A stretch of 64,000 bases of DNA. It comes from a virus. The stretch's first letter is position 1. Every line of letters begins with the position of its first letter. A model generated the notes under the pieces. The model worked only from the letters and a program-made list of their open reading frames with translations. It ran no database searches and had not been told where the DNA came from. Positions 42,807-44,146 of this stretch are shown here, one piece after another. A program made the translations under genes and the position numbers. The stretch is from positions 33,174-97,173 of the IMG/VR virus record IMGVR_UViG_3300009094_001034; one strand, given 5' to 3'.

Positions 42807-43430
42807 TTAAATATCGATGCCGTTCTCGGGATCCTGTGCGAAGAGCTCGACGATGTAGGTGAGTGCCGTGCCCGGCCGGCACTTCTGCTTCGTGCACACC
42901 TGTTCGAGGATGCTGTTGATGCGCTTCGCCGCGGTCTTCGGGAGCTTGAATTTCACGGTCTCGAACTTCTCGTCGGGTTGGAGCCCGCCGGCATCGTCAT
43001 TCGATGAGAGGGGCGCCACAACGTCTAGCGTTGCGGCATCGAGACCGAGCATCGGGAGTTCGGTCGGTGACAGCGTTTCGATCTGGAGTCGTAGTTTCGG
43101 GAAGTCCCAGGCGCCGAACGCCCCGTTGTCCGCAATGCGGATACGCGTCTTCTGTGCGGGGGTGAGATCTTTGAGAAAGAGCACAGGGACGTGCTTCATC
43201 CCGAGCTCGCGTGCGGCGTCGACGCGCTGATGGCCGCCCACGATCTCCAGCGTGCTGCCTTCGACGAGGATCGGTGCGAAGAACCCTTGTTTGATGGATG
43301 CTTTGAGCCCTTCAAATCTCTCCGGGTCCGACAGGCGGAGGAACGTGCGCGGGTTGTCCGACGCGGCCTTGAGGATGTTCGGTGCGACGTTCGTCACCTT
43401 GCCGTCGAGGAAGAAGTGCTCAAGCTTCAT
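42807..43430 (-). CDS. ParB/Srx-fold protein, 207 aa
   Basis: The ParB-like nucleotide-binding domain is visible at residues 30-90: ERFEGLKASIKQGFFAPILV, VGGHQRVDAARELGMKHVPV and LFLKDLTPAQKTRI. Phage ParB-like proteins can act as nucleases, DNA-modification helpers or CTP-dependent switches. The C-terminal ~80 residues are extra. ATG 43430 overlaps the exonuclease stop (ATGA), so the two are coupled, which suggests shared DNA processing. Confidence 0.75.
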   Translation of the reverse strand: MKLEHFFLDGKVTNVAPNILKAASDNPRTFLRLSDPERFEGLKASIKQGFFAPILVEGSTLEIVGGHQRVDAARELGMKHVPVLFLKDLTPAQKTRIRIADNGAFGAWDFPKLRLQIETLSPTELPMLGLDAATLDVVAPLSSNDDAGGLQPDEKFETVKFKLPKTAAKRINSILEQVCTKQKCRPGTALTYIVELFAQDPENGIDI

Positions 43431-44146
43431 GCGGCGAGGGCGGCCATGTGGTTGTCGGCCTGCAGGTCGTAGTAGGCCTCGATCCGCGCGATGAGCTCCG
43501 CCTTGTGATCGGCGGTCTTGCCCGTGAAGATCTGCACTTCACCCGTCTCGCACGTGATGACGATGACGTAGTCCTCGATGCTCGTTCCGAACAACTCGTC
43601 ATGGAAGAGCTGATACGCCGTGACTTGCAGGCGATAGTCCTGGACGTACGCATCGAGCTTCGGCCGCCGAGCGGTCTTCCAATCGCAAATGGTGAGCCTC
43701 CCGTCCCACTCCGCAACGCAGTCCACAGCACCGGCGGCGCGGAGGGTGGGCGACCACAGCGGCGTTTCAAGACAGGCGATCTGTCCGATGTGGCTACGTA
43801 CGGTCTGGCGAAGGTTGTAGGCCATGTCGGCGGTCTGGCCGCCGTCGTTCATCGCCTCGTACGTCGCGCGTGTCCAGGCGTCGATCGAGTCCTCGTCCTT
43901 CGCGTCGAGCCGCAGATAGGCTTCGAGGTAGGCGTGGATCTTCGTCCCTCGGTCTGCCGCGAACTTCGTCTGCCTGTCAGCTTCCGCGGCTCCAAGTCGC
44001 TTCCGCCATGCTTTGAGCTGGGGTGCGTCCTTGGTCTTCGAGAGGATGGTGGTGATGCTCGGAAAGGAACCCGCCGGCGTGGGGTAAGTCCGGCCTTCGG
44101 GCCGAGTGATCGAGCGAACCGCGAGGTTTGCCGCGTAGTTGAAGAT
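43427..44146 (-). CDS. RecB/MGME1-like PD-(D/E)XK exonuclease, 239 aa, apparent ATC start
   Basis: ADRGTKIHAYLEAYL (His in an early helix), GAVDCVAEWDG (Asp), TICDWKTARRPK (Asp-x-Lys) and YRLQVTAYQLF (Gln) form the RecB-nuclease core found in MGME1-like and phage recombination exonucleases. The frame has a TGA at the promoter F -10 region and no ATG, GTG or TTG before conserved sequence (EGRTYPTPAGSFPSITTIL). ATC 44144-44146 fits: it follows the C-rich leader CAACCCTCACTCTC 15-20 nt below the predicted transcript start. Internal ATG 43852 would remove the His motif. Confidence 0.8.
   Translation of the reverse strand: MFNYAANLAVRSITRPEGRTYPTPAGSFPSITTILSKTKDAPQLKAWRKRLGAAEADRQTKFAADRGTKIHAYLEAYLRLDAKDEDSIDAWTRATYEAMNDGGQTADMAYNLRQTVRSHIGQIACLETPLWSPTLRAAGAVDCVAEWDGRLTICDWKTARRPKLDAYVQDYRLQVTAYQLFHDELFGTSIEDYVIVITCETGEVQIFTGKTADHKAELIARIEAYYDLQADNHMAALAA

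Follow-up and report, generated by a model that had tools for sequence, protein, structure and literature searches.

Bacterial genes do not always begin at AUG: infC and pcnB both have AUU as a near-cognate start codon, and initiation at codons of this kind is weak and dependent on initiation factor IF3. All 64 codons have reportedly been examined as start codons in E. coli by Hecht in 2017. In Caulobacter crescentus, 75.4% of starts are reported to lack a Shine-Dalgarno (SD) motif, and 0.25% of coding sequences are placed at potential near-cognate codons beyond ATG, GTG, TTG, and CTG (PMC4117421). Structure around the starts of genes without an SD motif is described as weaker in 118 species, with the reverse trend in another 23 (PMC5397173), and in chloroplasts an ACG can stand at the start of an intact gene and be edited to AUG, a type of editing given in the same account as not observed in bacteria (PMC9845219). 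For phage genes, the titles and abstract openings of the open-licence PMC papers retrieved yielded no ACG or AUC starts.

Here, we describe two phage genes in which no normal start (ATG, GTG, or TTG) is available at the beginning of the reading frame; this absence is confirmed for both. They lie in a window of 64,000 nucleotides, bases 33174–97173 of a 97,173-base virus record, and encode an exonuclease, with ATC as its proposed start, and a terminase large subunit, with ACG. We think it quite probable, judging from the sequence comparisons below, that both genes are intact and undergo weak fMet initiation at these near-cognate codons on unstructured leaders devoid of an SD motif. An earlier sequence-only reading of this stretch had suggested the ATC start and alluded to an unnamed second gene of the same kind, which is most likely the terminase.

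As in infC and pcnB, a one-base variant of AUG would start an intact gene, and initiation would be expected to be weak and IF3-sensitive; those are, however, host genes that use AUU in an SD context, whereas the phage genes here, for a nuclease and a packaging motor, would use ATC and ACG behind leaders without SD. Resemblance to C. crescentus, within what that report covers, lies in GC-richness, SD-less starts, and near-cognate starts, but the Caulobacter starts were mapped experimentally in host genes (PMC4117421), while those of the phage are deduced. The chloroplast case, as described, is similar in that an intact gene has ACG where its start should be, and differs in that in plant chloroplasts this ACG can be edited to AUG (PMC9845219); C-to-U editing could not repair ATC. 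T4-like cyanophages (Syn19, S-CREM1, S-PM2) have a homologous exonuclease, and where the N-terminus of ours reads IFNY, that of Syn19 and S-CREM1 reads MFNF; the cyanophage gene has a normal ATG that overlaps the end of phoH by one base, and its gene neighbourhood is a different one.

Profile searches found an integrase, a DnaB-like helicase, GroEL, and a terminase, portal, protease, and coat module in the record. The GroEL-type chaperonin is full length (L021 1511–3100, equivalent to record 21511–23100; PHROG 5725, E=4.5e-149, and PF00118), is preceded by a C-rich leader, and could help to name the host. Two adjoining proteins at window 21183–24505 (plus strand) both match PHROG 6203, of unknown function, the former of the two carrying an HSP90/histidine-kinase-type ATPase domain (PF13589). 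ARAGORN found no tRNA genes in the window and a single tRNA-Tyr in the remainder of the record, which speaks against a phage-borne initiator tRNA, and no Rfam elements were present in the window at gathering thresholds.

A helicase search retrieved one related phage, IMGVR_UViG_3300005842_000485 (90,565 bases; G001 below), whose helicase is 62% identical to that of our phage at the protein level. No other lineage member of high identity emerged when viral contigs were queried with portal, helicase, and terminase, in single-sequence scans that need exact short peptides and may pass over records very near that of the window; in bacterial genomes, a terminase scan gave no match and a helicase scan one distant match. 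A single 1155-aa protein at window 49230–52697 (minus strand), which joins an N6 DNA methyltransferase to an SNF2-type helicase, is 62% identical to its counterpart in G001. Across window 17060–20137 (minus strand), the portal is 60% and the adjoining terminase 36% identical between the two phages, with a partly conserved terminase leader; this could reflect replacement of one terminase, or its faster evolution.

Read from the ATC, the exonuclease gene occupies 43427–44146 on the minus strand and encodes 239 aa. It matches PHROG 298 (E=2.6e-58, spanning residues 16–239 of the 246-residue open frame at 43427–44167, minus strand) and, above the cut-off of that family, PF12705 (PD-(D/E)XK nuclease, E=1.3e-8), matches that identify it as a PHROG 298/PD-(D/E)XK exonuclease with predicted nuclease activity. 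Residues D149, D162, and K164, which on the usual pattern of the fold would be the acidic and lysine positions of its nuclease core, are among the columns invariant in seven homologues, and the invariant columns are kept. An in-frame TGA at 44168–44170 (minus strand) closes the frame upstream. The 105 codons that precede the first ATG at 43850–43852 (minus strand; 106th codon of the open frame, 99th from the ATC) contain no ATG, GTG, or TTG; this ATG sits inside the conserved domain and is too far downstream to serve as the start. Both the lack of a normal start and the position of a conserved N-terminus above the first ATG, as proposed earlier, are borne out, the alignments and PHROG 298 placing the N-terminus wholly upstream of that codon. 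Codon-usage signal begins at codon 4 of the frame, and a start at 43850–43852 would cost 34.1 log-odds units under a codon model that is mildly circular, its training set of window genes including this exonuclease and part of the terminase; the same model registers a loss of 21.1 units for the G001 terminase, a gene outside its training set.

Homologues place the exonuclease start close to the ATC at 44144–44146 (minus strand). Twenty homologues with a normal start, comprising 11 named phages with annotated starts and 9 viral contigs taken from the first ATG of the open frame, were aligned with MAFFT; Met shares its column with the ATC in 7 and stands one column earlier in another 7; in 3 it is two columns earlier, and the last 3 have it still further upstream. 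The slot itself or one of the two columns before it (10 homologues) is thus occupied in 17/20. None begins downstream; a downstream start, which the sequence-only reading gave as a refuting result, would have spoken against the ATC. Loci L002, L004, and L012 were also in the alignment and have no Met at the slot, and are outside the 20 counted. The tblastn coordinates alone align the ATC with the annotated Met of Syn19 and of S-CREM1, and many homologues begin with Met-(x)-Phe-x-His/Tyr/Phe where this exonuclease would read Ile-Phe-Asn-Tyr. The ATC is therefore a near-cognate codon in the slot where homologues carry Met, preceded by a G-poor leader, and is likely to be the start, in agreement with the sequence-only reading.

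Not one of a further 79 exonuclease homologues whose 5' end is intact lacks a normal start (upstream of the domain, 68 have an ATG and 11 a GTG or TTG alone), counted anywhere upstream of approximately query residue 24 rather than at the slot; they come from the best 80 of at least 593 homologues, near-duplicates included, with L123, cut by a contig end, omitted. Met exactly at the slot is absent from 4/13 relatives (L002, L003, L004, and L012), each of which has an in-frame upstream ATG, GTG, or TTG; L015, whose match begins at residue 112, is left out of this set. In these four loci (L002 ~2940–2960, L003, L004 ~2515–2535, and L012 ~2970–2995) the exonuclease lies in the +1 frame of the upstream gene, at the stop of that gene, which would by analogy be phoH, with the stop context GTC TAA G in L002 and L004. 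The layout could mean that a programmed +1 frameshift produces a fusion, or no more than that translation starts upstream.

The terminase large subunit gene, read from ACG, covers 18599–20137 on the minus strand (512 aa; PHROG 38, E=2e-93) and adjoins the portal gene (PHROG 145) in a head-gene neighbourhood. Its frame (18599–20167) is closed upstream by an in-frame TGA at 20168–20170 (minus strand), and its first 117 codons contain no ATG, GTG, or TTG; a start at the first normal one, the 118th codon, would cost 43.4 log-odds units, and the conserved domain lies above that codon. The terminase frame of G001 has the same peculiarity: its first 70 codons are free of ATG, GTG, and TTG, and the first to appear, a GTG at the 71st codon, is by eye just past a Walker A-like PRDHAKTT. 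Conserved residues of the terminase are kept between the two phages. A normal start is present in 28 of the 29 terminase relatives examined, near-duplicate contigs among them, and the exception is G001; the 29 were drawn from 36 loci after setting aside those matching from query residue 70 or later (L054, L056, L060, L062, L064, and L065) and L063, which matches from residue 45.

Start-less frames of this kind are rare within the two phage records. Among the 186 open reading frames that scored above threshold there, four lose more than 8 units at the best normal start, and three of the four are the exonuclease, the terminase, and the G001 terminase. Together with the 79/79 homologues that have a normal start, this supports the earlier remark that two such genes are unlikely to arise by chance. 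An endolysin-like gene with a weak PHROG 7887 match (L020 13304–14482, plus strand), in which codon signal begins ~34 codons before the GTG start and 9.5 units are lost at the best normal start, is a weak candidate for an unusual start, but was not counted as a third start-less gene because GTG 13748 can serve the endolysin-like domain.

The remaining 182 frames, with each start chosen by codon signal and some possibly wrong, served for leader statistics. An SD motif is present in 40 and absent from 142 of them, and over the last 14 positions of the 142 SD-less leaders C makes up 30–57% (at least 39% at 12/14 positions) and G 11–26%. Two leader classes can be seen in both phages (window and L020/L021; G001 L067–L070 and L028), the SD-less class dominating, by eye, the structural genes. 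Both the exonuclease and the terminase have 18 G-free bases before the proposed start, CAACCAACCCTCACTCTC at 44147–44164 and CATTCACCACCCCACCCC at 20138–20155, respectively (both minus strand), the former within a 30-nt G-free run from 44164 to 44135. The record holds 60 G-free runs of at least 18 nt, 20 of which run into an ATG, and 12 of at least 26 nt, of which 10 do so, leaving the exonuclease run and one at window 62850. The sequence-only reading had further described the two genes as having the same leader context, and this stands as far as composition is concerned, both leaders being C-rich, G-poor, and without SD, but not as a repeated motif, the 33-nt string having a single occurrence. 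The 14-mer CAACCCTCACTCTC, at 44147–44160 directly before the ATC, has one exact match in the window and 11 near matches against a shuffle mean of 6.9, a number reached in 7/100 shuffles and thus no clear enrichment.

A leader matrix was built from the 142 SD-less leaders, with the three start-less genes kept out. The ATC scores 4.8, the highest among near-cognate codons in the first 60 codons of the exonuclease; this value is attained by 0.04% of gene-body codons (eight window frames) and by 32/142 training leaders, and one later codon, not near-cognate, scores 5.5. For the terminase, CATTCACCACCCCACCCC runs straight into the ACG at 20135–20137 (minus strand) with a score of 8.3, above all 142 training leaders and unmatched by any gene-body codon, so the gene is best read from ACG, a placement given by leader register between two phages only. 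In G001, the frame has ACG as its ninth codon. Both terminase leaders carry AGCATTCAC at equal distance from the ACG, CATTCAC standing at that distance in G001; among cross-phage pairs of SD-less leaders, a shared run at least as long occurs in register in 3/5005 and in any register in 33/5005. The score of the G001 ACG itself is 3.7, a value that 0.92% of gene-body codons and 52/142 training leaders attain, versus 5.3 for a later ATC, which at the 35th codon leaves only four residues before the conserved IPDFH.

In all three genes, positions −18 to +12 are predicted to be unpaired. GAAGG and GAAGGAG occur in our two genes, ending 18 nt before the start and thus beyond the usual SD spacing; with no SD at that spacing and weak predicted structure, the exonuclease and terminase starts fit the SD-less class. 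A possible leader hairpin (AGGGUGA/UCACUCU, 44147–44176, minus strand) ends beside the ATC and needs a transcript starting upstream of it. The 57-nt stretch that contains it has a predicted MFE of −14.9 (z −2.71), but over −30 to +12 an equally good fold is seen in 20% of the 142 SD-less leaders, and for that reason we do not press the hairpin as a switch. The earlier placement of a −10 box at the TGA finds no support, no sigma-70-like site having been detected in 43300–44500; nor was a terminator found near the exonuclease start.

Other explanations of the missing starts were weighed against near-cognate initiation. The true codons could be ATG, with the metagenome consensus one base wrong in each gene; both genes come from a single metagenome record, and either codon is one base from ATG. 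Against this, the G001 terminase, from a separate and diverged record, also lacks a normal start and has ACG in register, and error therefore does not explain the pattern; moreover, three hits on starts that leave the frames open, in three of the four outlying frames, would be a strange coincidence. We regard sequencing or assembly error as unlikely overall, and as very unlikely for the terminase in particular, where an error restoring ATG, named in the sequence-only reading as what would refute it, is countered by the second phage. No exonuclease was detected in G001, in a search run without a positive control there. The ATC thus has a single witness, for which a one-base error is still conceivable, and of the two genes the terminase makes the stronger case. 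An improbable reading, somewhat more so than error, has translation start at a GTG in another frame (44171 in the exonuclease, 20171 in the terminase) and shift by +1 in the C-rich stretch. The two GTGs do lie in the same relative frame, 25 nt and 34 nt upstream of the respective proposed starts, and the terminase stretch includes CCCC, but G001 has only ATA, and no ATG, GTG, or TTG, in that frame. In the third frame, open to 16 nt past the ACG, G001 does carry a TTG and a GTG, but our terminase has no normal start in that frame, and the sole start-like codon that the two terminases share in another frame is an ATT 17 nt upstream, itself near-cognate. The positions of the ATC and the ACG are, besides, marked by leader composition.

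Loss of a start would be a plausible first lesion in a decaying or silent gene, yet the two frames retain 239 and 512 open codons, strong codon bias, and their conserved residues; portal, protease, and coat genes are present, and the feature is common to a second phage. The terminase, moreover, is required for packaging, and decay appears very improbable. Just as doubtful is a terminase fused to the upstream gene through readthrough or frameshifting: six named relatives begin, from coordinates, ~26–39 residues upstream of our ACG position, and the upstream frame ends 35 nt before the ACG, but the upstream proteins of the two phages have no similarity, the in-frame stops differ (TGA and TAA), and the terminases of L051 and L059 have short N-termini like the ACG-started form.

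Near-cognate initiation would proceed as follows. An unstructured, G-poor leader without SD, of the type common to most scored genes, would place the 30S subunit, and initiator fMet-tRNA would pair with ATC or ACG at the cost of one mismatch. Compared with an AUG gene behind an identical leader, output would be low, a small fraction only, because mismatched pairing is weak and policed by IF3. Initiation at the two codons, its low level, its sensitivity to IF3, and its purpose are what we infer, the low level and the IF3 link from how bacterial initiation works in general. That the two genes use different near-cognate codons is a point against this reading. For the terminase, required in a few copies per particle and with its gene immediately ahead of those for portal and head proteins, a weak start could act as a built-in brake, and for the exonuclease it might be a brake against self-damage. 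More tentatively, and with somewhat less than even confidence, we suggest that the phage lineage keeps ACG on its terminase and has ATC on its nuclease as a conserved translational brake, in which start-codon mismatch and host IF3 would set the ratio of packaging motor to capsid.

Genes with near-cognate starts may be mis-called in viral metagenomes, since calling with ATG, GTG, and TTG only reduces the exonuclease to 141 aa and the terminase to 405 aa, stripping each of conserved N-terminal parts. Should the starts be real, the two phages would offer a natural test of how bacteria initiate translation without an SD motif and at mismatched codons, and could show whether phages use the start codon to adjust protein ratios.
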